Part shown: positions 27,387-45,551 of the stretch, piece by piece
Position numbering within the stretch: the stretch's first letter is position 1
Layout: each line of letters begins with the position of its first letter
DNA from: Nonomuraea sp. NEAU-A123
GTDB lineage: Bacteria; Actinomycetota; Actinomycetes; Streptosporangiales; Streptosporangiaceae
DNA length: 64,000 nt
Direction of reading: 5' to 3'
NCBI RefSeq assembly: GCF_018603905.1
Contig: NZ_JAHFZZ010000004.1
Coordinates: 62,001 to 126,000, forward strand
Made by a program: the position numbers and the translations under genes
Notes under the pieces: generated by a model
Database searches by the model: none
Seen by the model: only the letters and a program-made list of their open reading frames with translations
Told to the model about the DNA's origin: nothing

Positions 27387-28007
27387 TTACGGTGCGAGGA
27401 GGTCGTCGGCGATGGCGAGCAGGCGTACGGCCGCCGCCTCCGACGACCGGGTCTTCCCCTGCAGCCGCTCGCCGATCCGCCGCAGGAGCGCGTGCGGGTC
27501 GCCGTCCGGCTCCCGGCCATCGCTCTGTCGTACGCGGAGCAGGAGTTCCAGGGCGCAGGCGGCCTGCGTGGCGAACATGCCCAGGAGCTCCACGTCGTCC
27601 AGATCGCTGCGGGAGGCCGTGCGATCCAGCACCTCCAGGACGCCCACGCATTCCTCGAACCGGATGAGCGGTGCGGCCATGATGGTCCGCGGGACGTAAC
27701 CGGTGGATTCCGCGGCGTCCTGGGCGAACTGCGTCACGGCCGACACGTCGTCCGCGACCATCGGCTGCCCGCTCGCCGCGACCCAGCCGGCGATCCCGGT
27801 GCCGGCCGGAAAGTGGCTCCCGACCAGCTCTTTCTCGCCCGCGCCCGACACGGCTTCGAAGACCAGGTCACCGGTGTCCGGATCCACGAGGAAGATGGAC
27901 GCGGCGGCGGCGCCGAACATGTGGCGGGCCACCTCGACGATGGACTGCAGCAGCCGGTGTTCGGTGCCGTCGAGGGAGTCGGGAGAGTCAGGGAAGTCAG
28001 GGGACAT
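27387..28007 (-). CDS. GAF-domain protein
   Basis: A 206-aa protein built around one GAF domain (residues about 20-170: SIFLVDPDTGDLVFEAVSGA, then GIAGWVAASGQPMVADDV). GAF domains bind cyclic nucleotides or other small ligands. No output domain is attached. It overlaps the subtilase gene by 11 bp and ends the operon that begins with the leader-like protein at 32080. With a nucleotide cyclase in the same operon, cyclic-nucleotide sensing is a plausible but untested role. Confidence 0.8.
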   Translation of the reverse strand: MSPDFPDSPDSLDGTEHRLLQSIVEVARHMFGAAAASIFLVDPDTGDLVFEAVSGAGEKELVGSHFPAGTGIAGWVAASGQPMVADDVSAVTQFAQDAAESTGYVPRTIMAAPLIRFEECVGVLEVLDRTASRSDLDDVELLGMFATQAACALELLLRVRQSDGREPDGDPHALLRRIGERLQGKTRSSEAAAVRLLAIADDLLAP

Positions 28008-31883: not shown

Positions 31884-32080
31884 ACGAGCTTGAGCTCCTG
31901 TCCTTCCACCTCGCCGGCGTGGTCGTCCAGACGCTTCTTGATCGAGTTCAGTACGGCGACCTCGGTCGCCGTGAGCTCGGCGAACACCCTTCGCTGCCGC
32001 TCATCGAGCAGGTCGATGGGATGCCCGGCCGCCCGCAGCGTGGCCAGTGCGTCGAACCCGCCCGATCCGGTTCCGTTCAT
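31880..32080 (-). CDS. 66-aa leader-peptide-like protein without core
   Basis: Begins MNGTGSGGFDALATLRAAGH and ends GEVEGQELKLV. The middle part FAELTATEVAVLNSIKKRL lines up with FATLTKEETDLLISLKGKL of the RiPP precursor (both preceded by a Pro-Ile pair), so the two are homologous in the leader region. It has no cysteine and no C-terminal core. I recall similar actinobacterial proteins carrying the automatic label 'aroma-sacti cluster domain', which I cannot check here. It may be a decoy leader, a partner of the maturation enzymes or a sensor ligand. A TTG at 32089 is an alternative start. It overlaps the cyclase gene (ATGA). Confidence 0.7.
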   Translation of the reverse strand: MNGTGSGGFDALATLRAAGHPIDLLDERQRRVFAELTATEVAVLNSIKKRLDDHAGEVEGQELKLV

Positions 32081-32129
32081 GAACCACAAGCCTGAAACGG
32101 CTCATCGGCGTTCGCAAGAGATCAGGACA

Positions 32130-32188
32130 CCCACATTCGTGTGGTCGGCGCTCTGCCAGGTGAAAGCCGGTGAGCCCACGTTTGTGGG
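32130..32188 (+). promoter_or_regulatory. Two operator-like inverted repeats before the precursor gene
   Basis: CCACA-TTCG-TGTGG at 32131-32144 and CCCAC-GTTT-GTGGG at 32175-32188 are two similar inverted repeats with centres 44 bp apart, about four helical turns, so both face the same side of the DNA. The second abuts the likely -35 box (TTGTGT at 32190) of the precursor promoter. Confidence 0.6.
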
Positions 32189-32236
32189 GTTGTGTCACCT
32201 CCGCATCGCCAGCCGATACTCGACCTGCAACGCATC
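32173..32236 (+). promoter_or_regulatory. Shared 64-bp promoter module, precursor copy
   Basis: This segment matches the reverse complement of 43177-43240 without gaps at 56 of 64 positions; the first 28 bp (32173-32200) are identical. It contains CCCAC-N4-GTGGG, a TTGTGT -35-like and a GATACT -10-like element (32215-32220), and ends 24 bp before the precursor start. It is clearly a co-regulated promoter. Confidence 0.8.
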
Positions 32237-32260
32237 CCCCTAAGACGGAGAGGTGAAGGC

Positions 32261-32542
32261 ATGGCCTTCGATCCGAAGGAAGCTCTGCGTGAAGCCGGCG
32301 TCCTGAACGACCCGATCGCCGCGGAAGTCGAGGCGGCGTTCGCCACCCTGACCAAAGAGGAAACCGACCTGCTCATCTCGCTCAAGGGCAAGCTGCCCGC
32401 CGCGCTGCCGCTGGTGATGGCGGGTGGGCAGTGGGAGCGGCCCGAGGTTGAGGTGCACAACGAGGGCGAGGCCGAGGCGTCGTGCCTGTGCGGAGCCTGG
32501 TCCGGGTCCGGGTCCGGCGGGCCGTCCAAGCCGGCCTCCTAG
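32261..32542 (+). CDS. RiPP precursor peptide with Cys-Leu-Cys...Trp core
   Basis: A 93-aa peptide. Residues 1 to about 65 form an acidic, helical leader (DPKEALREAGVLNDPIAAEV, FATLTKEETDLLISLKGKL) like leaders bound by PqqD-type domains. The end, SCLCGAWSGSGSGGPSKPAS from residue 74, is the likely core with two Cys (75 and 77), one Trp (80) and a Ser/Gly tail. ATG 32261 follows GAGAGG. It is the first gene of the operon with the radical SAM, PqqD-like and flavoprotein genes and lies behind the shared promoter module. The cleavage site is not certain; EGEAEA just before the core is a candidate. Confidence 0.75.
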   Translation: MAFDPKEALREAGVLNDPIAAEVEAAFATLTKEETDLLISLKGKLPAALPLVMAGGQWERPEVEVHNEGEAEASCLCGAWSGSGSGGPSKPAS

Positions 32543-32559
32543 TCCGACGGCTCACGGGT

Positions 32560-32599
32560 GCGGCCCCGGTCGCATGTCGCCGGACAGGGCCGGGGTCGC
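32560..32599 (+). terminator. Hairpin between precursor and radical SAM gene (attenuator)
   Basis: GCGGCCCCGG pairs with CCGGGGTCGC (one G-T pair) around a 20-base loop. It lies in the 87-bp gap between precursor and maturase. A partial terminator here would give more precursor than enzyme, as in many RiPP operons. Confidence 0.5.
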
Positions 32600-32629
32600 G
32601 CCTGCCGCAGAGAGCGTGAAGGGAAATGG

Positions 32630-34072
32630 ATGTCTGGGAAGCTGGCCCGGAACCACTCGCTGTTCGACGTACCAGAAGACCTCACCTATTTCATGCACGA
32701 CGGGGCCTACCTGGTCGTCAACCCGCATTCCGGCGGTCGGTGTGTCCTCGATTCGCGTGAGTTCGGTGTCCTGCAGACCTTGGCCCGACCCTACGCTCGG
32801 CTCGAAGAGACCGATGAGACCGATCGGGTCCTCGCCAAACTCATTCTGGCGTGGATCGTCTACTACAACGGGAACCGTCCGCGGATCACGCTGAAAGAGC
32901 CGCCGCTCCGCATGGCTTACTACGCCATCACCGACGGGTGCAACCTTCGCTGCCCCTACTGCTACGCCTCCTCGGAGAAGTGCCTGCCGGGTGAGCTCAA
33001 CACCGAGGAGTCGCTCGGCCTGGTCTCTCAGATCGCCGATTTCGGCGCCTCGACCGTGGTCTTCACCGGCGGCGAGCCCATGCTCAGAAAAGACCTGTTC
33101 CAGATCGTGGAGCATGCCAATCAGAGCGGCCTGAGGTCGAACATCATCACCAACGCCACCATGATCAGGACTCCGGCGATCGCGCAGCGGTTCGCCGAGC
33201 TGTTCAACGCGGTCACGGTGAGCGTCGACGGCGGCACGGCCGAAACGCACGACCGCACCCGCGGCGAAGGCTCCTTCGCCAAGACCCACCGAGCCCTGCG
33301 GCTGCTCAACGACGTGGGCGTCACGCCGATGATCAACCACATCGTCACCTCGGAGAACGTCGATGAGCTCGAGGACTTCGCCTCGTTCATGGAGGGGATC
33401 GAGGTCGACAGCATCCGGCTGATGTACCACAACAACCTGGGCCGGGGAGAGAGCGACGAGTACGAGTTCGGCTGGGCGGACCATCTGAAGATCCAGCAGC
33501 TCACCTGGACCTCACCCGTCGCCGGCAAGCTGCTGCCGGACGGGCCCAAGACGCTGAAGCTGTGCTCCGTGAAGGCCAACTGCGGGATGGGCGGGAACGA
33601 GATCTACATCAACTCGCTGGGCGACGTCTACCCGTGCAAGCTCGTCACGGGACGCTCGCACCTCGCGGGCAACGTGCGACGGCAATCCCTGGCGGAGATC
33701 TTCGGCAGCCCGGTCCTGTACGACATGCGGACGAGCTCCGTGTTCGGCGGCGACTACCACGCCGACTGCGCGAGGTGCTACATCAAGTCCTCCTGCGGCG
33801 GGGGCTGCCGCGCCGCGCACATGGCCGAGTCCAAGGACCTGCGGCGCAACAGCCGCCATCAGTGCAGGATCCTGCGGCACGGCATCGTCACGCAGCTCTG
33901 GCTGGAATCCGGCGTCGATCCCGCGGAGCTCGCCGAGGACGCCGGGATGCAGACGCCCCGCCTGCTCGCCAACGACGACATCCATCCGGTCTTCGACGAC
34001 TGGAAGACCTACGTTCTCCCCTCGGCCGACGCGGTCAAGGTCGGCGAGCTGCTTCCCATAACACCGGTATAG
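32630..34072 (+). CDS. Radical SAM/SPASM peptide maturase with N-terminal RRE-like domain
   Basis: A 480-aa enzyme. Residues about 12-85 look like a PqqD/RRE winged helix (FDVPEDLTYFMHDGAYLVVN). The radical SAM core has Cys104, Cys108 and Cys111 (CNLRCPYCYA) for the 4Fe-4S cluster and the GGEP motif (FTGGEPMLRKD). The C-terminal SPASM domain holds further cysteines (CGMGGNEIYINSLGDVYPC, CARCYIKSSCGGGC) for auxiliary clusters. Such enzymes form thioether or C-C links in peptides. The Cys and Trp of the neighbouring precursor are likely targets. Start ATG 32630 is behind GAAGGGA. Confidence 0.9.
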   Translation: MSGKLARNHSLFDVPEDLTYFMHDGAYLVVNPHSGGRCVLDSREFGVLQTLARPYARLEETDETDRVLAKLILAWIVYYNGNRPRITLKEPPLRMAYYAITDGCNLRCPYCYASSEKCLPGELNTEESLGLVSQIADFGASTVVFTGGEPMLRKDLFQIVEHANQSGLRSNIITNATMIRTPAIAQRFAELFNAVTVSVDGGTAETHDRTRGEGSFAKTHRALRLLNDVGVTPMINHIVTSENVDELEDFASFMEGIEVDSIRLMYHNNLGRGESDEYEFGWADHLKIQQLTWTSPVAGKLLPDGPKTLKLCSVKANCGMGGNEIYINSLGDVYPCKLVTGRSHLAGNVRRQSLAEIFGSPVLYDMRTSSVFGGDYHADCARCYIKSSCGGGCRAAHMAESKDLRRNSRHQCRILRHGIVTQLWLESGVDPAELAEDAGMQTPRLLANDDIHPVFDDWKTYVLPSADAVKVGELLPITPV

Positions 34073-34084
34073 AGGAGGTGGAGT

Positions 34085-34363
34085 GTGTCACTCCAGATCA
34101 GTGACGCTGTGATATGGCAGGAGACCTCGGGCGGCATCTCGCTCTACCACGCCGAAACCGGGGATTTCCGCACCTTGAACGAGACAGGTTCCCGGATATG
34201 GGCGCTCGTCGCGAGCGACGGGGAGCGGGAGCCGATCGTCTCGAAGCTGTCGCATGAGTTCGCCGGGGACAACATCGCAGTGAGCGTACGCATCCTGAAG
34301 GACGTACAGGAGTTCCTCGGCAGCATGATCGAACAGGGTCTGATCGAAGAGCGTCCGGCGTGA
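34085..34363 (+). CDS. PqqD-like RiPP recognition element protein
   Basis: A 92-aa stand-alone PqqD-family protein (ISLYHAETGDFRTLNETGSR, then IWALVASDGEREPIVSKLSH). This small winged-helix fold binds the precursor leader and presents it to the tailoring enzymes. The GTG start lies behind GGAGG, 12 bp after the radical SAM stop; the FAD gene follows 7 bp later. Confidence 0.88.
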   Translation: MSLQISDAVIWQETSGGISLYHAETGDFRTLNETGSRIWALVASDGEREPIVSKLSHEFAGDNIAVSVRILKDVQEFLGSMIEQGLIEERPA

Positions 34364-34370
34364 GGCCTGC

Positions 34371-35768
34371 ATGACCAGAGCGGTCGTCCTCGGCGGGGGC
34401 TTCGCGGGTGTGCTGGCCGCCGCCGTGCTCGCCAGGCACGTGGACGACGTGATCGTGATCGAGAACGATCATTATCCGGCCGATCTCCGTGCTCGGCGGG
34501 GGCTGCCCCAGTCACGGCACAGCCACGTCCTCGTGGCCGGTGGCGCGCGGGCGCTGCAGGAGTTGCTTCCGGGGACTTTGGAGGCGCTCTTCGCCCGCGG
34601 CGCGCATCGCCGGCGCCTTCCCGGCGACGCGCTGATCCTCGCCGCGGCGGGGTGGTTCCGGCGGCTGGACACCGAGGCGTACCTCATCTCGTGCAGCCGG
34701 GGACTCCTGGACCAGGTGGTGCGCCGGCGGGCGCTGGGCGCCGTCTCGACCTGGACGGGCACGCAGGCGCTTGGCCTGGTGGGAGACGCGAGCCGGGTCA
34801 CCGGGGTCTCGGTCAGGCGCGAGGGTGCTCCGTCGGAGACCATCGAGGCGGATCTTGTCGTCGACGCGACCGGGCGGAGATCGAAGGCGCCACGGTGGCT
34901 GGCCGAGATCGGCGTGGCGGAGATCGAGGAGGTGACCGTCTCCTCCGGGTTGGCCTACTCCACCCGGGTCTATCAGGCGCCTCCCGAACTTGCTTGTGAG
35001 ACTCCGGCCATCATGATCCACCCGCGTCCGGCGAGCGGGCGGCCTGGCCAGGGGGCGACGTTGTTCCCGATCGAGGGCGACCGGTGGATCATCACCCTGA
35101 CGGGCACCCGGGGCGGTGAGCCGCCCGTGGACGAGCAGGGCTTCGCGGACTTCGCGCGCTCGCTGCGCGACCCGATCGTGGCGGAGCTCATGGCGGCGGC
35201 CACGCCGCTCGGCGGCATCCGGCCGTATCGCGACACGTCGAACCGGCGGAGGTTCTTCGAACGCGTACGCCTGCCCGCCGGCTTCGTCGCGATCGGCGAC
35301 GCGGTCGTCGCGGTGAACCCCGTCCACTCGCACGGGATGTCGGTCGCCGCGCTGAGCGCGCTCAGGCTGGACAGGGAGCTGACGCGGCGCGGGATCGGTC
35401 CGTCCGCCTTCCCCGGGTTGCAGGCGGCGATGACGGCGCAGGCGGATGTGTCATGGCGGATGGCGGTCGCGCAGGACCGGGGACCGGCCGGGCGGGAAGC
35501 GACCGCGTTCGAGCGCGAGATCCTCGCCCGCAGGACTCGGGCCTTGCTGAGCAGCCCGCAGCTCGCCGCCGAATTCTTCGGTGCGCAGACCTTGACGTCC
35601 ACGCGGGCCGTGAAAGACGGTTCGGCGGTGGTACGGGCGCTGACGGGGGAGCCGGATCCCCTTCTCACCACGGAGGAGGCCGTCAAGCAGCACCCCATGC
35701 TGTACGCATGGTGGAATGCGCGCTCGGCTACCCGTGTTCGCGCCGGCGGTGCGCCGAGCCGACGGTGA
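34371..35768 (+). CDS. FAD-dependent monooxygenase/epoxidase-like protein
   Basis: A 465-aa flavoprotein. The N-terminal FAD motif is VVLGGGFAGVLAAAVLARHV; GLPQSRHSHVLVAGG follows, as in the LasC/MonCI-type epoxidases and related hydroxylases; AIGDAVVAVNPVHSHGMSVA is the second FAD motif. It could hydroxylate the core Trp or another side chain; halogenation is less likely since I see no WxWxIP motif. It is the fourth gene of the precursor operon and its 3' end overlaps the convergent LuxR gene by 41 bp. Confidence 0.85.
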   Translation: MTRAVVLGGGFAGVLAAAVLARHVDDVIVIENDHYPADLRARRGLPQSRHSHVLVAGGARALQELLPGTLEALFARGAHRRRLPGDALILAAAGWFRRLDTEAYLISCSRGLLDQVVRRRALGAVSTWTGTQALGLVGDASRVTGVSVRREGAPSETIEADLVVDATGRRSKAPRWLAEIGVAEIEEVTVSSGLAYSTRVYQAPPELACETPAIMIHPRPASGRPGQGATLFPIEGDRWIITLTGTRGGEPPVDEQGFADFARSLRDPIVAELMAAATPLGGIRPYRDTSNRRRFFERVRLPAGFVAIGDAVVAVNPVHSHGMSVAALSALRLDRELTRRGIGPSAFPGLQAAMTAQADVSWRMAVAQDRGPAGREATAFEREILARRTRALLSSPQLAAEFFGAQTLTSTRAVKDGSAVVRALTGEPDPLLTTEEAVKQHPMLYAWWNARSATRVRAGGAPSRR

Positions 35769-36435
35769 TGAAGCCGGATTCGTACGCGATGCCGACCGCG
35801 TGCGCCCGGTTCACCGCCGAGAGCTTGGTGAGGATGCGAGCCAGGTGCGAACGGACCGTTCCGGTGCCGATGCCGAGCTTCTCGGCGATGCCGGCGTTCG
35901 ACAGGCCGGCCGCGACGAGAGCCAGCACCTCGGCCTCGCGGCGGGTGAGCTCCGCGAGCCGGTGATCGACCCCGGTGGTCGCCGCGGCGATGCGATCACG
36001 TAGCCGCGTGATCATCGAGCAGGAGATGAACGTGTGTCCGGCGGCGACCAGCCGGATCGCGGGCACGATCTCCTCGAACAGCGACGCCCGGTGCACAAAA
36101 CCGCCCGCGCCCCCGAGTAACGCGCGCCCGAGCAGCTCCTCGTCCAGCGTTTCCGAGACCACCACCACGCGCATCCGGTTCCTCGCCTGCGCCGCGACGA
36201 TACGGGTGAATTCCACGACGTCGGCCTGCCGCAGCGCCGCGTTCACGACCGCCACCCTCGGCCGGTGCCGGACGACCAGATCGCCCAGCCGGTCGGCGGC
36301 GCCGGCCTCGCCCACCACGTAGATGCCATTGCCCATGTGGAGCACGCTTCTGAGCTTGGCGCGCACCATCCGGTCCGGCTCGCCCACGACGACCCGCAGA
36401 GCGGGCATGGCCTCGCCCGCGGGGGTGGACTCCAT
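35728..36435 (-). CDS. NarL/LuxR-type regulator with degenerate receiver
   Basis: A receiver-like domain followed by a LuxR helix-turn-helix (LTRREAEVLALVAAGLSNAG, then LGIGTGTVRSHLARILTKL). The receiver starts normally (RVVVGEPDRMVR) but the phosphorylated Asp is replaced: RVAVVNAALRQ has Asn where Asp is expected. It may therefore work without phosphorylation. The frame stays open to 36612; I prefer the ATG at 36435 (or 36408). It is the last gene after the methyltransferase of the - strand operon and is the likely pathway regulator beside the SARP. Confidence 0.8.
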   Translation of the reverse strand: MESTPAGEAMPALRVVVGEPDRMVRAKLRSVLHMGNGIYVVGEAGAADRLGDLVVRHRPRVAVVNAALRQADVVEFTRIVAAQARNRMRVVVVSETLDEELLGRALLGGAGGFVHRASLFEEIVPAIRLVAAGHTFISCSMITRLRDRIAAATTGVDHRLAELTRREAEVLALVAAGLSNAGIAEKLGIGTGTVRSHLARILTKLSAVNRAHAVGIAYESGFITVGSAHRRREHG

Positions 36436-36612
36436 CGGTTGTGCCACCTGACCACCCGAGTTTGAGCGCGGTTGCTCTTCCGGCACACTATGCGCGTCCG
36501 CCCTGCCGACAGCCAGAGCAGCGGGGTTACTCAAGCCCGCCACCCGCATGTGAGAGGTACCCATGACTGCCTGTGGCCGCGGTTGTCGGAACGGCGACCG
36601 CGCGATCGGCAC

Positions 36613-37629
36613 TCAGGACGGATCCGCGACGAGGATCCGGATCGCCGAACCCCGTAGCGGCGGCGTGACGTCGGTCAGGTCGAACCCGCCGGCCGCGAGC
36701 AGGTCGTGGAACTCGGCTCTGCTGCGTTCCCAGCCGCCGGTGTAGATGAGCATGGCGATGTCGCTCATGACGACGCCGGCCGCCTCCGGCGTGTCGAGCC
36801 TGGACGGCAGCACCGGTTCCAGGATCAGCAGGCGTCCGCCCGTCGCGATCGAAGCGCGGCAGTTCCGCAGCAGCGCGGTGCACCGCTGGTCGTCCCAATC
36901 ATGCAGGACGCCTTTCAGCAGCATGAGATCGCCTTCGGGCACGGCCTCGAAGAAGTCGCCCACTTCGACGGAACACCGATCGGACAGCCCCGCCTGCTGG
37001 AAGGTCCCGGCAGCGGCGGCCACGCCGTCGGCGGTGTCGTACAGGATGCCCTGGGCGCTGGGCGTGGCCGCCAGTATCGCGGCGAGCAGCGTGCCGTTTC
37101 CGCCCCCGATGTCGACCACGGTGCGGGCACCGGTGAAGTCGTAGGCCCTGGCGGCCTCGAGCGCGACGCGCTCGGTGCCCTCGCACATGGCCGTGTTGAA
37201 GATCCTCGAAAGATCATGATGGCCGGCGAGGTAGTCGAAGAGCGGCTGGTCGTGCACGTGATCGAAGGCGGCCTCACCCGTTCGTACGCTGTGGGTCAAC
37301 GCCCCCCACGCCTGCCAGGTCGCGGGGTCGCCGAGCAGCAGCACGCTGGAGCGCATCGACCATGGATGGTCGGCACGCAGCGGCTGACCCAGCGCGGCCA
37401 GCGCGAGGTGTCCCGGCGCCACCTCATCGACCACTCCCAGGACCACCAGTGCCCGCGACAGCCGCTCCAGCGCCCGCGGGTCGGCCCCGATGGAGCGCGC
37501 CAGTTCGTCGATCGGCATGGCTCCGGCGGCAAGGGCGTCGGGAACGCCCAAGCGGACGGCTGTGTACAGGATTTGCGAGGTGGCGTAGCCGAACGCCATC
37601 CGGGACAGCTCCGCGTACCCGTTGATCAT
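36613..37629 (-). CDS. SAM-dependent O-methyltransferase (family 2)
   Basis: A 338-aa methyltransferase like DnrK and other small-molecule O-methyltransferases. The N-terminal winged-helix dimerisation domain (YAELSRMAFGYATSQILYTA) precedes the SAM site (RTVVDIGGGNGTLLAAIL), with LLKGVLHDWDDQRC as the catalytic region. These enzymes methylate phenol or enol hydroxyls, so a hydroxyl made by the P450 or flavoenzyme is the natural substrate. The ATG overlaps the P450 stop by 4 bp, so the order P450-methyltransferase is translationally coupled. Confidence 0.9.
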   Translation of the reverse strand: MINGYAELSRMAFGYATSQILYTAVRLGVPDALAAGAMPIDELARSIGADPRALERLSRALVVLGVVDEVAPGHLALAALGQPLRADHPWSMRSSVLLLGDPATWQAWGALTHSVRTGEAAFDHVHDQPLFDYLAGHHDLSRIFNTAMCEGTERVALEAARAYDFTGARTVVDIGGGNGTLLAAILAATPSAQGILYDTADGVAAAAGTFQQAGLSDRCSVEVGDFFEAVPEGDLMLLKGVLHDWDDQRCTALLRNCRASIATGGRLLILEPVLPSRLDTPEAAGVVMSDIAMLIYTGGWERSRAEFHDLLAAGGFDLTDVTPPLRGSAIRILVADPS

Positions 37630-38849
37630 AGGCTGGCACCCTTCCCCAGCAGCAGTGGCAGGCGGCGTACACCATGCAGGAACAGGTCCGGCGTCCATTC
37701 CAGGCCGGCGGGGTCGACGGCCAGGGCCAGGCCGGGGAAACGGCGCACCAGCGCGCCGATGGCCGCCCGGGCCTGCAGCCGGGCCAGCGCCGCACCGAGA
37801 CAGAAGTGGATTCCGTGTCCGAAGCCCAGGTGCCGGTTCGGGGTGCGGCCGATGTCGAAGACATCCGGCTGGTGGAACACCGCCGGGTCGCGGTTGGCGG
37901 CCAGCAGCACCGGCACGACGATGTCACCGCGGGGGATCACGGTTTCCCCGATGTCCAGGTCGGTCAGCGCGTACAGCGGCCGGGAGTGCCCGACCGGGCC
38001 GTTGAACCGCAGCACCTCCTCCACCGCGGAGTCGATCAGCCGGGGCCGGGCGCGCAGGCGCTGGAGCTGATCGGGGTGGCGCAGGAGTTCCAGCACTCCG
38101 TTGCCGATGAGGTTGACCGTCGTCTCGTCTCCGGCCAGCAGCAACTGGAACACGCTGGACACCAGCTCGGCGTGGCTGATCTCCGTCGACCGGACGAGCT
38201 GGGACAGCAGGTCTTCACCCGGCTGGGCCCGCCGCTCATCGAGCTTCTCGTTGACGTAGGCGACGAACCCGATTCCGGCGCGGCGCACCAGTGCCGCGTC
38301 CCGGCTGCGCAGCATGTCGTCGCTCCACCCGCGGAGCCGGGCCCGGTCGTCGATCGGGAAGCCGACCAGCTCGGCGACGATCAGGATCGGCAGCGGCAGC
38401 GCCAGCGCCTCGATCAGGTCGACGCCGTCTCCAGCGGCCGCCACGCCGTCGACCAGCTCGCCGACGACCTGATGCACGCGCCGCTCGAGCGCCGCCACCG
38501 TCCGAGGGCCGAACGCGGGCGCCATCAGCCGCCGCAGCCGGGTGTGGTCGGGCGGATCGAGGTTGAACATGTTCCGCCGCACCATCGCCAGTGGGTCGTT
38601 CTCCCATCGGCGGTGAACGGCGGCGAGCTCGTCGGGCAGCCGGTCGAGTTGACGCCCCAGGCCCGGGTCGTGGAGGGCGCGCTGCACGTCGGCGTACCGG
38701 GTCAGGTACCAGGACGCGTGACCGGCCGCCGGGCTCGCCTGGCGGTAGACCGGCGCCCGCTCGCGCATGCGGTGGAAGAGCGGGTGCGGGTCCCGGCGAT
38801 GCGCCGAGCCGGTCGGGTCGAACGACCGCTCAAGCCCGGTCGCGCTCAT
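37626..38849 (-). CDS. Cytochrome P450
   Basis: A 407-aa soluble actinobacterial P450. The I-helix motif LLLAGDETTVNLI, the ExxR motif (EEVLRFNGP) and the haem loop FGHGIHFCLGAALARLQ with its Cys ligand are all present. P450s hydroxylate or cross-link aromatic residues in several RiPP pathways. ATG 38849 overlaps the TfuA stop and its own stop overlaps the methyltransferase start, placing it firmly in the operon. No dedicated ferredoxin is seen nearby. Confidence 0.93.
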   Translation of the reverse strand: MSATGLERSFDPTGSAHRRDPHPLFHRMRERAPVYRQASPAAGHASWYLTRYADVQRALHDPGLGRQLDRLPDELAAVHRRWENDPLAMVRRNMFNLDPPDHTRLRRLMAPAFGPRTVAALERRVHQVVGELVDGVAAAGDGVDLIEALALPLPILIVAELVGFPIDDRARLRGWSDDMLRSRDAALVRRAGIGFVAYVNEKLDERRAQPGEDLLSQLVRSTEISHAELVSSVFQLLLAGDETTVNLIGNGVLELLRHPDQLQRLRARPRLIDSAVEEVLRFNGPVGHSRPLYALTDLDIGETVIPRGDIVVPVLLAANRDPAVFHQPDVFDIGRTPNRHLGFGHGIHFCLGAALARLQARAAIGALVRRFPGLALAVDPAGLEWTPDLFLHGVRRLPLLLGKGASL

Positions 38850-40159
38850 CACCCCTTGGCCTTCTGCACATCCAGTGCGAAGAACCTGCTGACGGTCTGT
38901 CCGAGATCCGCCATGCTGAGGAACCCGCGCCGCGCCAGCTCGACCTCCGCTGACGTTCCGGGTCCGTTCCAGTGGCGGGAGAAGATCCGTCCGCAGATCG
39001 CCGGTGCCGGGACGACCAGCCGGCCGCGCGTCTGTTCCGCGGTCTCGTCGGCACGGGCGACGAGATCGGACCACTCGGGCCAGTGGCTCGATGCCCGGAT
39101 CCGTTCCAGGACGATCGGCCGCCAATCCTCCGACTGCCAGACCGGCCACACCCGCACCATGATCAATCGGAGCTGCTCGGCGGCGGGCAGGGTGGCCCGC
39201 TCGGTCTCGGAGAGCCACGACGCAAGGCTGGGCGGTACGTCGGCACGGTCATCGACCCCGAGCCTGGCCCGCGTGTACGCCTCCAGCCCCAGGCCCCGCG
39301 CGCCGGCGAAGTCCCTCAGGAGGCCGGTCAGCACCTGCTCGTGCAGCCGCGGGTAGTCCTGGCCGAACAGCCGCGCCGCGTCCAGGACATCGAGATCGGA
39401 CATCCACCTGCCCGGCGCGTACTCCCGCATCGACCGCCAGGCCAGCGCCTCGTAGTGGGTGATCCCCGTCAGGGCCACGTCGGCCGCCCACGCGCTGGGC
39501 GCTTCGGCGCGGTGCCCGCCGACGGCGCTCAGGGCCGCCACCGCGTCCAGCCGCTTCAGATCCCACTCGCCCGTCCCGATCATCCGCTCGAGCGTGCTCA
39601 GGGCGTCGCCGGCCTCCGGGCCCAGGGCCTCTTCCAGCTCGTGCCAGGTCCGGTGGACGAAGGGCCTGGTCTTCGCCGCATCGACGATCCGCTCGCCCGC
39701 CGCCGCCGGAACCAGGCCGGTCCTGGCTCCCTCCTGGCAGCCGTAGCGGATGTTGACCATGGCCACCGTGCCGGTGGGGTATCCCCTTTCCGCGGGCCCG
39801 TGCAGGACCGCCACCTCGTCATCCCCATCGACCTCGCCGGTCGCGTACATGCGGAAGACGGACCCGACGCCACGCATGCCGTACGGGCTCAGCTCCGCCG
39901 CCCGGAGCGCCCCCATGCTCGCCGCGCCGATGACGTTCACGCCTTCGTTGAGCAGCCAGAGAATCTCCTTGTGGCCCACGGACAGCCGCTCCCGGTAGTA
40001 CCCGTCGATGATGACGGCGGTGTCGTCCCGGTCCCACTCCTCCCTGAGGAGATCGCCCCGGGCCACGGGCGGCCGCGTCCGCGCCTCCGGAAGCACGGCG
40101 AGGACCTCCTCGTGAGAGATCGTCGGCCCGGCGTAGACGACTGTCTTCTGGCTGCTCAC
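38849..40159 (-). CDS. TfuA-domain protein with long C-terminal extension
   Basis: A 436-aa protein. The first 215 residues are a TfuA domain (YAGPTISHEEVLAVLP, VIIDGYYRERLSVGHKEILW, IGAASMGALRAAELSPYGM). TfuA partners YcaO enzymes in thioamide formation (thioviridamide-type peptides, methyl-coenzyme M reductase). A further 200 residues without recognised domain follow, rich in Trp and Arg, longer than typical TfuA. The GTG start overlaps the YcaO stop by one base. The close coupling supports a joint TfuA-YcaO complex. Confidence 0.88.
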   Translation of the reverse strand: MSSQKTVVYAGPTISHEEVLAVLPEARTRPPVARGDLLREEWDRDDTAVIIDGYYRERLSVGHKEILWLLNEGVNVIGAASMGALRAAELSPYGMRGVGSVFRMYATGEVDGDDEVAVLHGPAERGYPTGTVAMVNIRYGCQEGARTGLVPAAAGERIVDAAKTRPFVHRTWHELEEALGPEAGDALSTLERMIGTGEWDLKRLDAVAALSAVGGHRAEAPSAWAADVALTGITHYEALAWRSMREYAPGRWMSDLDVLDAARLFGQDYPRLHEQVLTGLLRDFAGARGLGLEAYTRARLGVDDRADVPPSLASWLSETERATLPAAEQLRLIMVRVWPVWQSEDWRPIVLERIRASSHWPEWSDLVARADETAEQTRGRLVVPAPAICGRIFSRHWNGPGTSAEVELARRGFLSMADLGQTVSRFFALDVQKAKG

Positions 40160-41322
40160 TAGAACACCTCCGGGGTGACACGGCTGCCCGGCGCCACCAC
40201 TCTGACCACGGGGACCCCGATCTCGTCCCTCGTCAGATCGATGACGAGAGGGGCGGCGGAGAACGCGACCGCGGCCCGCTCGACCACGTCCTCCAGATCA
40301 TCGACCAGGCTCTGGTGAGCCGTCTGTCTCGGGATCGCCTCGCCGGTGTCCGCTGCGGGCACGGGCCGGCGCCTCGCGCCCGGGCCGTTGGGGACGCCCG
40401 CCTCGAGGTCGTCTCTCGCGCCTGAGATGTAGCCGAGCCTGGCCTGCGCGGCCTCGGTGACGGCACGGGTGAGCGCTATCTCCGAGCCGAGGTGGCAGCC
40501 GAATCCCATGAACGCCGGTGGATAGTCGGCGCAGGAGATCCGAGCCAGGAAGCACGGCAACCCGGTGGGCGACGGCACGGACCTGACCTCGAGAGTGACC
40601 CGGGCCCGCGCCATCGTCTCGCACAACTCGTCGACGACCGGCGACCCCAGAGTCCCCGGGTCGACGAGGACCCCCTTGTCGCCGGCGGCCATCGCCGTGG
40701 TCACGGCGTCCCTCTCGATCACCTCGTACAGCGCGTGCAGGACGGCCTCGGCCGCCGTGTTCCCGCTGGCCAGGCCGTTCGTCGACTCGAAGAACACCGG
40801 TGGGTTCCAGCCGGTCTTCCGTACGAGGGAGAATCCCACCGAATCCTTGGGAACCAGCCTCTCGGAGCCGTCGGTCAGCGACCTGCCGGCGACCCAGTCC
40901 AGCGGCAGCCCGTCGTGCAGCACGGTCGGCGGGGAGAGCGGGAGATCGCGGACGTCATAGCCCAGGTGCCCGATGACGTCGCGAGGGGGCGCCGTCGTCA
41001 CCGTCGTTATGGGCTGCTCGGCGTGCCAGAGCTCAACGGCTTCCATCATCGCGGACAGCCGCGCCAGCTCGGGGGTGATTCCTTTCCCCTGAGACACGGC
41101 GAGCGTCCGGGCAGTCGGCCGGATTGCCTGAAATGTTGGGATTCCGATGGTGTCCAGCCGGGTGATGTCCGCGACCCTGGTGATCCCGACCATCCGGGCC
41201 GCCCGGTCGGCCATCGCCCGCGTGGCCGTCGGGTCGTGGGCTCTGTCCGTGCCCGGTAAGCGGACCTTGGACCGGTCGGACTGCGAGAGGAGCCACGAGA
41301 GAGGGGAGTTGTCTGTCCGCAT
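40159..41322 (-). CDS. YcaO-domain protein
   Basis: A 387-aa YcaO enzyme, which uses ATP to activate a peptide backbone amide. ATP-binding residues are visible in VSQGKGITPELARLSAMMEA (Gly-Lys-Gly, then Glu) and in SGNTAAEAVLHALYEVIERD. It ends RVTPEVF and lacks the PxPxP tail of azoline cyclodehydratases, and there is no E1/ThiF partner or dehydrogenase, which together with TfuA favours thioamidation over azole formation. It lies between the ABC permease and TfuA genes. Confidence 0.92.
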   Translation of the reverse strand: MRTDNSPLSWLLSQSDRSKVRLPGTDRAHDPTATRAMADRAARMVGITRVADITRLDTIGIPTFQAIRPTARTLAVSQGKGITPELARLSAMMEAVELWHAEQPITTVTTAPPRDVIGHLGYDVRDLPLSPPTVLHDGLPLDWVAGRSLTDGSERLVPKDSVGFSLVRKTGWNPPVFFESTNGLASGNTAAEAVLHALYEVIERDAVTTAMAAGDKGVLVDPGTLGSPVVDELCETMARARVTLEVRSVPSPTGLPCFLARISCADYPPAFMGFGCHLGSEIALTRAVTEAAQARLGYISGARDDLEAGVPNGPGARRRPVPAADTGEAIPRQTAHQSLVDDLEDVVERAAVAFSAAPLVIDLTRDEIGVPVVRVVAPGSRVTPEVF

Positions 41323-41343
41323 CGTCCCTTGTCCTTGACGAGA

Positions 41344-42156
41344 TCAGATGTTGCGAGCGCGGTTGATCAAGGCGCGGCCGCCCACGGCGTAGCTGATGGC
41401 CGCCAGGACGGCCAGCACCAGGAGGTCCTGCCACGCGTCGGCGAAACCGAAGAACGCGGCGTCCCGCATACCGTCGATCGCGTACGTCAGCGGGTTGATC
41501 ACCGATACCCACTGCAGCACGGTGGGCATGCTGTCGACCGGGTAGAGCGACGGGGCGCTGAAGACGAGAACGGGGATCGACACGTTCGACAGCAGCATGA
41601 AGACCTGGTAGTCGGTGATCAGGATCGCCGTCGCCAGATACAGTCCGTTGAAGGCAAGGGCGGCCACCGTGAGCACCGACAGCAGGCCGGCCCAGGCTTG
41701 CAGGTCGAAGGGCAACTCGAAGACGAACACCGCCACGCCCAGGGCGAGCAGGGCCTGTCCCAGCACGAGCGAGACGCCCGCGATCACCTTGCCGAGCAGG
41801 AACCGCGACCTGCGCAACGGGTAGGACCACAGTTGTGTGGCCGCGCCGCTCATCTCCTCCTGGAACACCGCCATGCCGGAGGTTCCCGCCGCGCTGACGA
41901 CCGACATCGCCAGCGTCATGGGCAGCAGGAAGATCGCGAACGGCACCTGGATGCCCTTGTAGTCGACGACCTTGAGGAGGTTGCCCAGCGAGGTGTTCAC
42001 GAGCAGCAGGTAGATCAGCATCGGGGCCAGTCCGAGGACGAGATACACCCGGTTGCGGGCGAGCAGCGCGTACTCGCGGTAGAGCACCGCGGACAGGTCG
42101 GCCGCCTTCGGGGTCCCGGTCGGAGGAGTGTTGTTGAATGTCAGCTTGGCGGCCAC
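41344..42156 (-). CDS. ABC-2 type transporter permease
   Basis: A 270-aa membrane protein with six hydrophobic segments, of the DrrB-like ABC-2 family. It pairs with the ATPase gene 13 bp upstream to make an exporter; the mature peptide is the likely cargo. The start is GTG at 42156. Confidence 0.88.
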   Translation of the reverse strand: MAAKLTFNNTPPTGTPKAADLSAVLYREYALLARNRVYLVLGLAPMLIYLLLVNTSLGNLLKVVDYKGIQVPFAIFLLPMTLAMSVVSAAGTSGMAVFQEEMSGAATQLWSYPLRRSRFLLGKVIAGVSLVLGQALLALGVAVFVFELPFDLQAWAGLLSVLTVAALAFNGLYLATAILITDYQVFMLLSNVSIPVLVFSAPSLYPVDSMPTVLQWVSVINPLTYAIDGMRDAAFFGFADAWQDLLVLAVLAAISYAVGGRALINRARNI

Positions 42157-42169
42157 ATTTATCCCCTTG

Positions 42170-43141
42170 TCAGTCCTCGGCCTCCGTCATCCGGAGGAAC
42201 ACCTGCTCCAGCGAGTCCGAGACGGTCGAGACACCGGAGATCGCGACGTCGTGCTCCAGGCAGTGCCGCGACAGCTCCGGCAGCACCTCCTGTGCCCGCG
42301 CACCGTGGATCCGTACGTCGGAGTCCTCGGCCGTGGCCGTGAGCCCGGCCGCCTCCGCCCAGGCCAGCACCACCAGGCCGGCCGCGGGATCATCGAGGGC
42401 CACCAGCAAGTGGGTGGTGCCGAACTCCTCGACCAGTTCGCGCGGTTTGGCGAAGCGCAGCACCCGTCCCTTGTCGATGACCAGGACACGCTGGCTGTTG
42501 CGTTCCAGTTCGTCGATGTGGTGGCTGGTCCACAGCACGGTCACGCCGTGCTCCTCGCGTAGCCAGGTCACGAAGCGCTCGATGTGGCGCCGTCCCACCA
42601 CGTCCAGTCCCGCGGAAGGCTCGTCGAGGACCAGCAGCCGCGGAATGGTGAGCAGCGCCCGCACGAGTTGCAACCGCTGCCGCTGACCGCCCGAAAGCTG
42701 GAAGCAGAATCGCGGCAGGGCCTCCGTCAAGCTGAGGAACTCCGCCAGTTCGAGCGCCCACGGCCGCACGGCACGCCACTTCAGACCGCGGAAGCGGGCC
42801 GCGATCCGCAGGTTGTCGAGCGCCGGCAGCATCATGTCGAACGGGCCTGACTGGTGCATCGCCCCGATGTCGCTCTTGGCGGCGACGGGCTGACGCACCG
42901 GATCGGCGTCGAAGACACGGACCTGGCCGGAGGTGGGGGTGGTGACCCCGCAGATCATCTTGATCAGGGTCGTCTTCCCGGCGCCGTTGGGCCCGAGGAG
43001 CCCGATGGTCTCTCCCCGCGCGATCTCGAACGAGACATTGTCCACCGCCGGTCTCTGGCTGCGCCGATAGCGCTTGGTCAGCCCTACGGCCGTCACCACG
43101 TCGCTCGACACGGCACCACCCTTCACCTCGACTCGCTCCAC
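42170..43141 (-). CDS. ABC transporter ATP-binding protein (DrrA-like)
   Basis: A 323-aa ATPase with Walker A (LLGPNGAGKTTLIKM), signature (LSGGQRQRL), Walker B (LLVLDEPSAGLD) and H-loop (TSHHIDE), and the C-terminal extension usual for DrrA-type exporters. First gene of the - strand operon behind the shared promoter module. GTG 43141 is the outermost sensible start; GTG 43111, giving VSSDVVTAVGLTKRY behind GAGGTGAAGGGTGG, is an equally good choice. Confidence 0.92.
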   Translation of the reverse strand: MERVEVKGGAVSSDVVTAVGLTKRYRRSQRPAVDNVSFEIARGETIGLLGPNGAGKTTLIKMICGVTTPTSGQVRVFDADPVRQPVAAKSDIGAMHQSGPFDMMLPALDNLRIAARFRGLKWRAVRPWALELAEFLSLTEALPRFCFQLSGGQRQRLQLVRALLTIPRLLVLDEPSAGLDVVGRRHIERFVTWLREEHGVTVLWTSHHIDELERNSQRVLVIDKGRVLRFAKPRELVEEFGTTHLLVALDDPAAGLVVLAWAEAAGLTATAEDSDVRIHGARAQEVLPELSRHCLEHDVAISGVSTVSDSLEQVFLRMTEAED

Positions 43142-43176
43142 CGAACGTGCAGGCGGCGGTTTCTGCTGGCGCTGGA

Positions 43177-43240
43177 GATGTGTTGCAGGTTGAGTATGGA
43201 CCGGCGATCAGCAGGTGACACAACCCCACAAACGTGGGCT
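43177..43240 (-). promoter_or_regulatory. Shared 64-bp promoter module, transporter/YcaO copy
   Basis: Reverse complement of this stretch matches 32173-32236 at 56 of 64 positions, with 28 bp identical (43213-43240). It includes the inverted repeat CCCAC-N4-GTGGG at 43225-43238 and a CATACT -10-like element. It drives the ATPase-permease-YcaO-TfuA-P450-methyltransferase operon and lies 71 bp upstream of the divergent SARP gene. Confidence 0.8.
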
Positions 43241-43310
43241 AGCCGGGACGGTATGCCGAACGACAGAGGGCGCGTTGTGCGACCACGCAGAGTGTGATCA
43301 TCATCGGCAC

Positions 43311-45188
43311 ATGGACCGGTTCAGTCGCGCATTTCGTAGTCGAGTGAACGCCAAGCCACATGATCCGTACACGCTGCGCATGCCTACCGGCAGTCCCGGC
43401 GTGACCTGGCAGCTCCCGGAGGAGAGCGACCCCGCGACCGCCCTGCCGTGCGTGGTCCTCGTGGATCGTGCGGGGCTCGCCGAGTTCGCGGTGCTCCAGC
43501 GCGGGCTGCGCACGCTCGGCGTGCCGAGCGTGCGGGTCGACGCCGGGTCGATCAGCGGCCTGCGGATCATCACCCAGCTCGACGACGGCTCGCTGACACT
43601 GAACGGGCGCCGCATCATCCCCACCGTCACCTGGGTACGGCACTTCTCGCCGCGGGCCGTGCAGGGAGGGAACGGCTCGGCGCCGTCCCTGTTCCGGGCC
43701 GACTCGTGGGGCGCTTTCATCGACCAGTTGTCGTCGCTGTCAGCCGCCCGGCTGCCCGGCGGCCGTGACCTGGGGCGGCTGGTTCAATTGGACGGCGCGG
43801 CACAGGCAGGGGTCCGTACCCCACGAACGATCGCCACGACCGACGTGGGGGCGGCGAGCGCGGCGCTGGCCAGCGACCGGATCATCGTCAAGGCCCTCGA
43901 CCGGCATTTCGTCGAGACCGAACCGGGCACCCTGCACGGGGTCTTCCCGGAGATCGTGGACGGCGTCGTGGCCAGCAGCCTGCCTGCGCGCGACGCGCCC
44001 ATGATCGTCCAGGAATACGTCGACCACTGGGCGGAGCTGCGCGTCTACTTCGTGGACGGCGAGATCCGGGCCTTCCGCGTCGGCAAGCCATCGCCCGAGG
44101 CGATCTGGTGCGACGCGGCGTCGGTCACGGTCTCTCCGGTGGCGGCGCCGGAGGCCGTGGTGGAGGCGGTGCACCGGCTCGCCGGGATCTGGGGTCTGCG
44201 CTACGGCGCCTTCGACTTCCTGCTGACCAGGCAAGGACCGGTCTTCCTCGAAGTCAATCGCGACGGCGACTGGCGGTGGTTCGAAGCGAAGGCCGGCGTC
44301 GACGACGTCTCCATCGCGACGCTTTCCACGGTGCGTACGCTCCACCGCCAGGTGGCCAAGGCGGGTTCGGCGACGATCGATCTGGCCGGATTCCTGGCGC
44401 TGGGCACCGACCGGATCGAGCGGGCGAAAGTCGTGACCCCGCGCTTGGACGCCCGCGTGCTCGGCGCGCTCGAGGTGCGGGTGGACGGCACGATCGTGCA
44501 CGTCAGCGCCAGGAAGGCCCGGCTTCTGGCCGCGATCCTGCTCTCCCGCCCGAATCAGGTGGTCCCGACGGACCAGTTGATCGATTCCTTGTGGGGAGAA
44601 CGACCACCCCCCTCGGCACGCAAGAACCTCCAGGTCTACGTCTCGGTGCTGCGGAGGAGGTTCGGAGATCGGATCTCCTACCAAGGCTGGGGATACCGTC
44701 TCGACGCCGGGCCGGACGAACTCGATCTCCTCGAGTTCCGGCGGCTGGCCGGCGCCGGCCGGGACATGCGGCGCAGAGGCGACGCCGATGCCGCGTTGAC
44801 CGTGCTCGATGACGCCCTGCGCCTGTGGGGTGGTCAGCCGCTCGCGGAGTTCTCGGGGGTCGCCCTGGTCGATGAGGCGGTCGGCAGATTCACCGACCTG
44901 TACCTCACGGTCAATGAGGACTGGGCGGAACTCGCGATCGAGCGGGGCAGCCACATCGAGGTGCTGAACAGGCTCGACGACCTGGTGCCCTTCTTCCCCG
45001 CGCGTGAGCGGCTCGTGGCGGCGAGGATGACCGCTCTCGCCGGTTGCGGCCGTGCGCCGGAGGCGCTCTCGCAGTTCGAGACCGTACGCCGGCATCTCGT
45101 GGCCGAACTCGGCATGGACCCCAGCCCCGTACTCAGGAACCTCTACGAGGAGATTTTCCACGGGCAGCTCGCCAGGGCCGATCCATAA
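43311..45188 (+). CDS. ATP-grasp (graspetide-synthetase-like) domain fused to SARP regulator
   Basis: A 625-aa fusion. Residues about 25-365 form an ATP-grasp protein of the MvdD/TgmB type: a pre-domain with TVTWVRHFSPRAV (family WYRRP-like motif), nucleotide-binding RIIVKALDRHFVE, MIVQEYVDHWAELRVYFVDG, and the metal site VFLEVNRDGDWRW with Glu and Asn kept. Residues about 380-625 are a SARP: an OmpR-like DNA-binding domain (LGALEVRVDGTIVHVSARKA, then LLSRPNQVVPTDQLIDSLWG) and a BTAD domain. SARPs activate antibiotic clusters. The frame opens at 43215 inside the operator; ATG 43311 is preferred. It is divergent from the ABC operon and is the likely activator of both module-bearing promoters. 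Confidence 0.85.
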   Translation: MDRFSRAFRSRVNAKPHDPYTLRMPTGSPGVTWQLPEESDPATALPCVVLVDRAGLAEFAVLQRGLRTLGVPSVRVDAGSISGLRIITQLDDGSLTLNGRRIIPTVTWVRHFSPRAVQGGNGSAPSLFRADSWGAFIDQLSSLSAARLPGGRDLGRLVQLDGAAQAGVRTPRTIATTDVGAASAALASDRIIVKALDRHFVETEPGTLHGVFPEIVDGVVASSLPARDAPMIVQEYVDHWAELRVYFVDGEIRAFRVGKPSPEAIWCDAASVTVSPVAAPEAVVEAVHRLAGIWGLRYGAFDFLLTRQGPVFLEVNRDGDWRWFEAKAGVDDVSIATLSTVRTLHRQVAKAGSATIDLAGFLALGTDRIERAKVVTPRLDARVLGALEVRVDGTIVHVSARKARLLAAILLSRPNQVVPTDQLIDSLWGERPPPSARKNLQVYVSVLRRRFGDRISYQGWGYRLDAGPDELDLLEFRRLAGAGRDMRRRGDADAALTVLDDALRLWGGQPLAEFSGVALVDEAVGRFTDLYLTVNEDWAELAIERGSHIEVLNRLDDLVPFFPARERLVAARMTALAGCGRAPEALSQFETVRRHLVAELGMDPSPVLRNLYEEIFHGQLARADP

Positions 45189-45194
45189 CCGGTC

Positions 45195-45213
45195 GTATGG
45201 TCCGGCCATACCG
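45195..45213 (+). terminator. Weak hairpin after the ATP-grasp-SARP gene
   Basis: GTATGG-TCCGG-CCATAC lies 10 bp after the stop codon of the fusion gene; modest stem, no T run. Confidence 0.35.
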
Positions 45214-45299
45214 CTGATTAAGCAGACGCTTCTAGCTTGCACACAGAGGCGCTTCCACCAGGGGCGCCTCCGCCAAGGCGATCCGAACCGGGACTTGCT

Positions 45300-45551
45300 A
45301 TGGATCTTGTTTCCGACGATCTGACAAATGATCGCGACACGTGGCTGATCATCCTGCTGGCCAGGGGACATACGACGACAAGAATCGCCCGCGAGATGAA
45401 CCTCAGCAGATACACGGTGGCAGAGCGGATCAGCAAGCTCCTCGACCGATTCGCCTGCAGCAACCGGAGCCAGCTCGTGGCCTACTCCTACGCCCACAAG
45501 CTCCTGGACGTCGGCATCTGGCCGCCCGGCGCCTCCGACACCGCCGGCTGA
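45300..45551 (+). CDS. Small LuxR-type helix-turn-helix protein
   Basis: An 83-aa protein that is little more than a LuxR/GerE DNA-binding domain (LARGHTTTRIAREMNLSRYT, then VAERISKLLDRFACSNRSQL). It has no sensor or receiver part. The ATG at 45300 gives this form; a start at 45237 would add 21 residues. It lies 110 bp behind the ATP-grasp-SARP gene and marks the probable edge of the peptide cluster. Confidence 0.75.
   Translation: MDLVSDDLTNDRDTWLIILLARGHTTTRIAREMNLSRYTVAERISKLLDRFACSNRSQLVAYSYAHKLLDVGIWPPGASDTAG

Follow-up and report, generated by a model that had tools for sequence, protein, structure and literature searches.

One gene cluster of Nonomuraea sp. NEAU-A123 probably encodes a single pathway for a ribosomally synthesized and post-translationally modified peptide (RiPP), the product of which, judging from gene content and conservation, would be a thioamidated, tryptophan-oxidized sactipeptide. 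The cluster lies in a 64,000-nucleotide stretch of contig NZ_JAHFZZ010000004.1 (positions 62,001 to 126,000 of the forward strand; hereafter the window, in whose numbering all coordinates are given), from a genome of 12.7 Mb in 82 contigs. An earlier note on this DNA had described a composite cluster that combines TfuA-YcaO, radical S-adenosylmethionine (SAM)/SPASM, P450, flavin monooxygenase and O-methyltransferase (OMT) genes, and Pfam and NCBIfam scans found every gene named there at its given place and in its given family, with scores far over the cut-offs. The note had also held that precursor homologs never occurring with YcaO/TfuA would indicate two unrelated clusters; in our survey, YcaO and TfuA genes lie on the precursor's contig in 34 of 35 loci that, like the window, pair the precursor with a flavin adenine dinucleotide (FAD) enzyme (FAD-type loci). 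The OMT, P450, TfuA, YcaO and ATP-binding cassette (ABC) genes, all on the minus strand, face the operon that runs from the precursor to the FAD enzyme on the plus strand, with overlaps of 1 base between YcaO and TfuA, 1 base between TfuA and P450, and 4 bases between P450 and OMT. The YcaO gene is the sole YcaO match in the whole genome. The central genes are:

32261..32542, plus strand, StsA-type precursor of 93 residues (NF045559, 132.7 bits, cut-off 75; NF045560, 59.6 bits, cut-off 30)
32630..34072, plus strand, StsB-family radical SAM/SPASM enzyme (NF045574, 895.1 bits, cut-off 625)
34085..34363, plus strand, stand-alone PqqD protein, a RiPP recognition element (RRE) (PF05402, 45.9 bits)
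34371..35768, plus strand, FAD enzyme of the MonCI/Lsd18 epoxidase family (profile search and Foldseek)
36613..37629, minus strand, OMT of the Methyltransf_2 family (PF00891, 157.8 bits, cut-off 22.3)
37626..38849, minus strand, cytochrome P450 (PF00067, 101 bits, cut-off 22.8)
38849..40159, minus strand, TfuA protein (PF07812, 140 bits, cut-off 30)
40159..41322, minus strand, YcaO (PF02624, 232 bits, cut-off 25.7)
41344..42156, minus strand, ABC-2 permease of a predicted exporter (PF01061, 89 bits)
42170..~43141 (start codon uncertain), minus strand, ABC ATPase of a predicted exporter (ABC_tran, 105 bits; DrrA-like, 221.6 bits, below the cut-off of 312)

Related loci were collected by a contig scan with StsB, which returned 38 loci, and the counts below are hence conditioned on StsB. 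Sixteen window genes were searched by tblastn, with larger fetches where a flank was short, and two genomes (G025 and G027) were added; the recount, at a threshold of at least 40% identity, gives 35 distinct FAD-type loci, the window included. Loci with identical precursors, treated as same-species repeats, were excluded (L040, L041, L043, L044, L045, and L048, equal to L006, L025, L003, L002, L038, and L013, respectively), as was L051, at 268 bits below the StsB cut-off, and the neighbor counts leave out StsB matches L147–L150 and the Streptantibioticus matches.

The precursor bears the NCBIfam name 'StsA-related sactipeptide RiPP' and belongs to the StsA family by its score; it comprises an N-terminal aroma-sacti domain, a WxxP recognition motif, and a core of about ASCLCGAWSGSGSGGPSKPAS. 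In the window the motif reads QWERPE and, by spacing as in the StsA of Streptomyces sparsogenes, the core would start near ASCLCGAWSGSGSG; the placement of the core at about residues 70–93 in the earlier note was a good one. All 35 FAD-type precursors have a core of the form CxC[GSA]xWSG[SA]G, and WxxP precedes CxC both in these and in the eight precursors from loci that lack the FAD enzyme (L033–L037, L039, L049, L050). The FAD-less cores are of the form CxCxC, with three Cys and no Trp, vs. two Cys and one Trp in the FAD-type cores. One of the FAD-less loci (L033) is that of S. sparsogenes, where a 45-residue open reading frame (ORF) has residues that fit the positions discussed in the portion of PMC12710340 available to us; from this locus and that text, Sts appears to denote the S. 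sparsogenes system.

By Pfam alone, the FAD enzyme gives a generic FAD_binding_3 match. A profile of 21 orthologs searched against solved structures matches Lsd18 (E 9.2e-127) and MonCI (2.7e-116), with the next family at 3.8e-11; an AlphaFold2 model (mean predicted local distance difference test score, pLDDT, 89.9) has the same two proteins as its best Foldseek matches (query template modeling score 0.84–0.88, 37–42% identity; next match E 1.6e-20). The closest homology in both sequence and fold is thus to the MonCI/Lsd18 family, the members of which are polyether olefin epoxidases, and a Protein Data Bank title among the Foldseek matches names monoepoxidized farnesyl acetate. The label 'flavin monooxygenase' in the earlier note was right as to the presence of a flavoenzyme and too generic as to its type. 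Weak NCBIfam matches had prompted a reading modeled on cysteine tryptophylquinone (CTQ), in which the FAD enzyme would be a Trp hydroxylase of the QhpG/LodB type and the adjacent radical SAM enzyme would be QhpD-like; it was dropped because the FAD enzyme is of the MonCI/Lsd18 type by profile and fold.

Trp is the sole conserved aromatic residue of the core. It is present in all 35 precursors that occur with the FAD enzyme and in none of the eight that occur without it, in which its position is taken by Phe, Leu, Asn, or Gly, and we propose that the FAD enzyme oxidizes this invariant Trp. A possible, though not likely, alternative is that the flavoenzyme S-oxygenates the thioether or thioamide, or acts on a dehydro residue, and that Trp is conserved because the hairpin needs it to fold: no group of the predicted product is oxidized more easily than sulfur, and the CxC cores of the FAD-less relatives manage without Trp; however, those relatives lack both the flavoenzyme and Trp although the CxC cysteines are there, a pattern better matched by Trp as the substrate. 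Within the preferred reading, that of Trp oxidation, a detailed version is speculative and rather unlikely to hold as a whole: a recruited polyether-type epoxidase would epoxidize the 2,3-bond of the Trp indole, and a neighboring nucleophile, either the Cys of C-G-x-W or a backbone amide, would open the epoxide. The result would be a hydroxypyrroloindoline or a bridge resembling tryptathionine, in addition to a thioether and a thioamide in the same peptide. On that version, the CxCxC cores of the FAD-less relatives, which have no Trp, would look as though a Trp-based modification had taken the place of one thioether in the FAD-type cores.

The radical SAM enzyme carries the NCBIfam name 'StsB family sactipeptide maturase', and its score makes it a member of that family; the CNLRCPYC motif and the cysteines of the SPASM region are invariant across 19 aligned proteins, and the nearest named homolog is from Nonomuraea aurantiaca (92%). 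StsB was reportedly shown, in work of 2023 by Precord and colleagues, to form sactionines. We propose that the window enzyme is likewise a sactionine (S-Cα thioether) synthase; because it is StsB-type, it would be expected to join Cys to α-carbons rather than to cross-link Trp, so that, of the Cys or Trp cross-link by radical SAM suggested in the earlier note, only the former is retained, as a thioether. The published antiSMASH annotation of this cluster type, made from the SPASM domain and the stand-alone PqqD protein (PMC8120280, in the part available), is ranthipeptide, by which the radical SAM enzyme would link Cys to β- or γ-carbons; we regard this as improbable, given that the enzyme scores only 83.5 bits against the PapB profile NF047865 (cut-off 340), on which ranthipeptide membership was scored, vs. 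895 bits against StsB (cut-off 625), and that the window core has no Asp or Glu after CxC to serve as acceptor. A PqqD match adjoins StsB in all 38 scan loci and has the character of a stand-alone RRE. In S. sparsogenes the PqqD-like RRE StsC binds the WxxP motif of StsA, according to co-purification described in the accessible text of PMC12710340, and by analogy the window PqqD protein is proposed to be the leader-binding partner of StsB.

YcaO proteins catalyze azoline, amidine, and thioamide formation, and a PxPxP C-terminal end is the mark of cyclodehydratase YcaOs. Thioamidation, already read from the TfuA-YcaO pair in the earlier note, is the best reading here, with the YcaO as a proposed backbone thioamide synthetase, because the YcaO gives a McrA-type match, albeit under the cut-off, and the PxPxP end occurs in none of the 33 YcaOs compared (33 of 34, with L010 left out because the locus ends inside YcaO). 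Specifically, the best NCBIfam equivalog of the YcaO is the McrA-glycine thioamidation family TIGR03266 (212 bits, below the cut-off of 365) and that of the TfuA protein is the McrA partner family (169 bits, below the cut-off of 235); the nearest solved relative of the latter is the TfuA domain 6xp8 (E 1.2e-29). Two YcaO sequence boxes are retained in all 33 proteins and a third in 28; we take the three to be ATP-site motifs. Adjacent ycaO and tfuA genes in the precursor's cluster and a YcaO without a PxPxP end are gene-level features expected of a TfuA-YcaO thioamidated RiPP, and both are present here. TfuA is described as a hydrolase with an assisting role in sulfide delivery (PMC13063428). 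The chance that the YcaO instead makes azolines or an amidine appears small: Cys and Ser are present in the core, but no FAD-type locus has YcaO without TfuA, the equivalog matches and the C-terminal ends are as described above, and no cyclodehydratase partner was found among the scanned cluster genes, which leaves the azol(in)e classes (thiazole/oxazole-modified microcins, TOMM, and linear azol(in)e-containing peptides, LAP) without their defining features.

The FAD-type loci represent nine genera; many are close relatives and therefore do not amount to 35 independent events. The two halves are kept together in five arrangements: as facing operons (the window); with the YcaO/TfuA half co-directional and upstream (L015, L029, L030, G025); with that half reversed and upstream (L031); with the halves about 10 kb apart and a cyclase/protease module between them (four Streptomyces); and as precursor, StsB, PqqD, FAD enzyme, YcaO, and TfuA in six consecutive genes on one strand, in the proteobacterium Celeribacter persicus (L032). 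In this last locus, the earliest possible starts would make the FAD enzyme and YcaO genes overlap, and likewise the YcaO and TfuA genes; the other cluster genes were not found nearby, except for a 29% match to the ABC ATPase. Of 295 genomes sampled from the family of Celeribacter, only that one has StsB, and this isolation suggests that the complete set arrived by horizontal transfer; in the window's own class, StsB exceeds the cut-off in 5 of 394 sampled genomes, counting the window's own. One scan of viral contigs returned no relative that would point to a phage origin, and a search bearing on plasmid origin returned matches only in two Streptantibioticus cattleyicolor records (55% identity). 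The YcaO/TfuA half had seemed absent in Streptomyces, with none within 10 kb in L022, L023, L024, and L027, but a whole-genome TfuA search with larger fetches located the Streptomyces YcaO/TfuA genes some 15 kb away from StsB on its contig; the L008 YcaO, beyond the first fetch, was likewise found in a larger one. YcaO/TfuA was found near StsB in none of eight FAD-less loci (L033–L037, L039, G065, G032), with about 7–10 kb covered on each side. A reverse search, which scored at most 11 candidates per genome, found TfuA of at least 67% identity in 9 of 146 genomes (the window's own included), eight of which have StsB over the cut-off. The co-occurrence in 34 of 35 loci and the reverse search together indicate that the two halves form a unit, from which parts have been lost naturally in two cases.

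Several observations weigh against the pathway as proposed. The substrates of MonCI and Lsd18 are polyene alkenes, not peptides, and the association of the FAD enzyme with Trp coincides with one StsB clade split, so that shared ancestry could explain it. The window StsB is just 58% identical to the S. sparsogenes enzyme (L033), and this identity, with a core of two Cys rather than three, means that the bond type could differ. The YcaO box ExxExWHAE varies in 5 of the 33 proteins. TfuA occurs elsewhere, on other contigs, in three of the six FAD-less genomes searched whole, and could act in trans. G027 keeps the precursor, StsB, PqqD, FAD enzyme, and P450, the last directly after the ABC permease, with YcaO/TfuA missing within the 30 kb read and no close TfuA elsewhere in the genome. 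Conversely, the ninth genome of the reverse search, G046 (L142, L143), retains YcaO/TfuA and has no StsB: between genes that also flank the window cluster, it holds from the cluster only TfuA (92%), YcaO (91%), the LuxR gene, the small helix-turn-helix (HTH) gene, and an ATP-grasp stub. The G046 TfuA gene has no internal stop; the locus is a deletion remnant, to judge from its gene content. Distance correlations are 0.91–0.96 among the cluster enzymes and 0.76–0.83 with the cyclase, but species phylogeny is uncontrolled in these values and we give them little weight. Very improbable, on this evidence, are two unrelated adjacent clusters, a sactipeptide operon and a thioamide operon with its own overlooked precursor: the window halves are transcribed toward each other and each can persist alone (G027, G046), but both are kept in nearly all FAD-type loci across the five arrangements, including the six-gene row of Celeribacter, the FAD-less StsB loci have no YcaO/TfuA nearby, and no second cored precursor was noticed beside the window YcaO, where no systematic search for small ORFs was made and the other leader-like protein is core-less.

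We computed the gene families, their co-conservation, and the core and leader motifs; each chemical step below is an inference from these, as are the sequence of steps, the choice of acceptor residues, the identity of the leader peptidase, and bioactivity of any kind. The PqqD-like protein would bind the WxxP motif of the StsA-type precursor and present the core (about ASCLCGAWSGSGSG...) to StsB, which would join the two thiols of CxC to α-carbons of residues in the WSGSG segment, generating hairpin thioethers. The YcaO, with sulfur from TfuA, would convert one backbone amide to a thioamide, for which either of the two invariant glycines is the likeliest site, and the MonCI/Lsd18-type flavoenzyme would oxidize Trp by indole 2,3-epoxidation or hydroxylation. 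In this strain the P450 might hydroxylate the peptide further, with the OMT capping that hydroxyl. The leader would be removed by a peptidase (an S8 subtilase here, S9 in some relatives), and the ABC pair would export the product.

The P450 occurs in 29 and the OMT in 23 of the 35 FAD-type loci, and these two are optional decorations; both are missing from Celeribacter, the four Streptomyces, and G025. The oxidized, methylated product predicted in the earlier note therefore applies to this strain, which encodes both enzymes, and not to the cluster type as a whole. The OMT never occurs without the P450, which fits hydroxylation followed by methylation; the closest solved relative of the OMT is CalO6, and the P450 is PikC-like. 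The conserved neighborhood extends to the left of 32080, where the earlier note began, as far as a GAF-domain gene at 27387, and three further genes absent from that note's list (the LuxR-type regulator, the ATP-grasp/SARP fusion, and the small LuxR-HTH gene) lie among or beyond the central genes:

27387..28007, minus strand, GAF-domain protein of the same minus-strand run (PF01590, 70.2 bits)
27997..28869, minus strand, S8 subtilase, candidate leader peptidase (PF00082, 95.1 bits)
28866..31883, minus strand, class III cyclase/AAA protein (Guanylate_cyc, 60.6 bits; AAA_16, 84.8 bits; TOMM_kin_cyc, 143 bits vs. a cut-off of 705.75)
31880..32080, minus strand, core-less leader homolog with an aroma-sacti domain (NF045560, 76.5 bits)
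35728..36612 (longest ORF; ATG near 36435), minus strand, LuxR-type response-regulator protein (GerE, 61 bits; Response_reg)
43311..45188, plus strand, graspetide-type ATP-grasp domain fused to a SARP/BTAD regulator (TIGR04187, 84.6 bits, below the cut-off of 350; BTAD, 114 bits)
45237..45551, plus strand, small LuxR-HTH regulator (GerE, 28.7 bits)

Homologs of the LuxR-type regulator are found in 16 of the 34 other FAD-type loci and those of the small LuxR-HTH gene in 14, several loci ending before its place. The nearest solved relatives of the ATP-grasp domain are AMdnB and CdnC; the domain is a separate gene in Streptomyces (StrTBY4) and in G027, vs. the SARP fusion of the window. A role for it as graspetide cross-linker of the precursor peptide was rejected on the lack of Asp or Glu after CxC in the window core. 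Three Microbispora loci (L011, L012, L014) and L031 have the small HTH gene next after the ABC ATPase gene, and no ATP-grasp match separates the two; the other Microbispora loci end ahead of this place.

The core-less leader homolog, encoded divergently from the precursor gene, consists of the precursor's N-terminal domain and a conserved tail (EVEGQELKLV). Its stop codon and the start codon of the cyclase gene share bases in the sequence ATGA, and the S8 subtilase and GAF genes come after the cyclase. It is present in 19 of the 34 other FAD-type loci (at least 40% identity), with the cyclase in 25, S8 in 22, and GAF in 22, some loci ending before that place; the core-less leader and cyclase occur also in genomes without StsB over the cut-off. 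The core-less protein may act as a sensor of the leader or as a competitor for the proteins that bind it. The S8 subtilase could be what removes the leader. In ten loci (the four Streptomyces, L015, L029, L030, L031, G025, and G027) tblastn places a Peptidase_S9 gene directly after the FAD gene, with the Pfam family confirmed for two of the ten, and this enzyme could be the leader peptidase there. Neither S8 nor S9 peptidase was found in the six Microbispora loci or Celeribacter. Seven further loci (L099, L102, L108, L110, L113, L114, L118), from genomes without StsB over the cut-off, encode aroma-sacti-domain proteins with short aromatic tails (GAGLW, GGALF, GAALF, GGWCW, GGLLF), and all seven hold a homolog of the same cyclase; these proteins could be precursors of another peptide class.

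If the proposed pathway is correct, one short core (CxCGxWSGSG) receives radical thioether, thioamide, and flavin-oxidation chemistry, a MonCI-type epoxidase gains a peptide substrate, the sactipeptide and thioamide fields are connected, and the published ranthipeptide label is corrected. The six consecutive genes of Celeribacter would then be a naturally minimal set that might be transferred to Escherichia coli, and the steps become separately testable in loci with natural partial losses, which lack YcaO/TfuA in the case of G027 and P450 and OMT in the case of Celeribacter and Streptomyces.

Among known systems, StsA/StsB/StsC of S. sparsogenes resembles the window in its radical SAM enzyme (58% identity), stand-alone PqqD-like RRE, WxxP motif, CxC core, and ABC exporter. 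The eight Sts-type loci differ in their precursors, of 35–45 residues (by chosen starts) with CxCxC and no core Trp, and gave no tblastn match to the window FAD enzyme, YcaO, TfuA, or precursor. The TfuA-YcaO thioamidation systems (thiovarsolins, thioamitides, and McrA) share adjacent YcaO and TfuA with the window, the best equivalog matches of which are the McrA-type pair; unlike them, the window couples YcaO-TfuA to a radical SAM sactipeptide precursor, and its scores fall below the McrA cut-offs. MonCI and Lsd18 share sequence family and fold with the FAD enzyme; they act on polyketide polyenes, whereas the gene of the FAD enzyme sits in a peptide pathway. In the maturation of quinohemoprotein amine dehydrogenase, a thioether-forming radical SAM enzyme (QhpD) and a flavin monooxygenase (QhpG) act on one peptide; the window FAD enzyme is nearer to MonCI/Lsd18 than to QhpG (32.6 bits, cut-off 240).

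In the literature searched, no characterized product of this cluster type was found among the matches listed. The terms 'rSAM' and 'P450' are absent from the available main text of the RiPPER paper (PMC6511847), which brings up radical SAM twice, neither time for a cluster of this kind; thiogochangamides are thioviridamide-type according to the accessible part of PMC13185837; and the portions at hand of PMC11002830 and PMC9231227 mention no such product. The earlier note knew of no characterized pathway with all of these families, which holds for the product but not for the gene combination, already in print: Malit et al. (2021; PMC8120280), in the text available, describe two cluster families from Sphaerisporangium, Microbispora, and Herbidospora that combine YcaO/TfuA, radical SAM/SPASM, stand-alone PqqD, P450, and OMT, labeled ranthipeptide and without a product. 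With the same gene combination and genera, these are very probably the same cluster type as the window; the FAD epoxidase, the StsA/StsB families, the Celeribacter form, and the core-less leader homolog are not mentioned in that text. The cluster type is thus already known from genome mining, and its chemistry is what we infer here; new are the sactipeptide assignment, the pairing of an epoxidase with Trp, the minimal form, the partial-loss genomes, and the core-less leader beside a cyclase/protease module.

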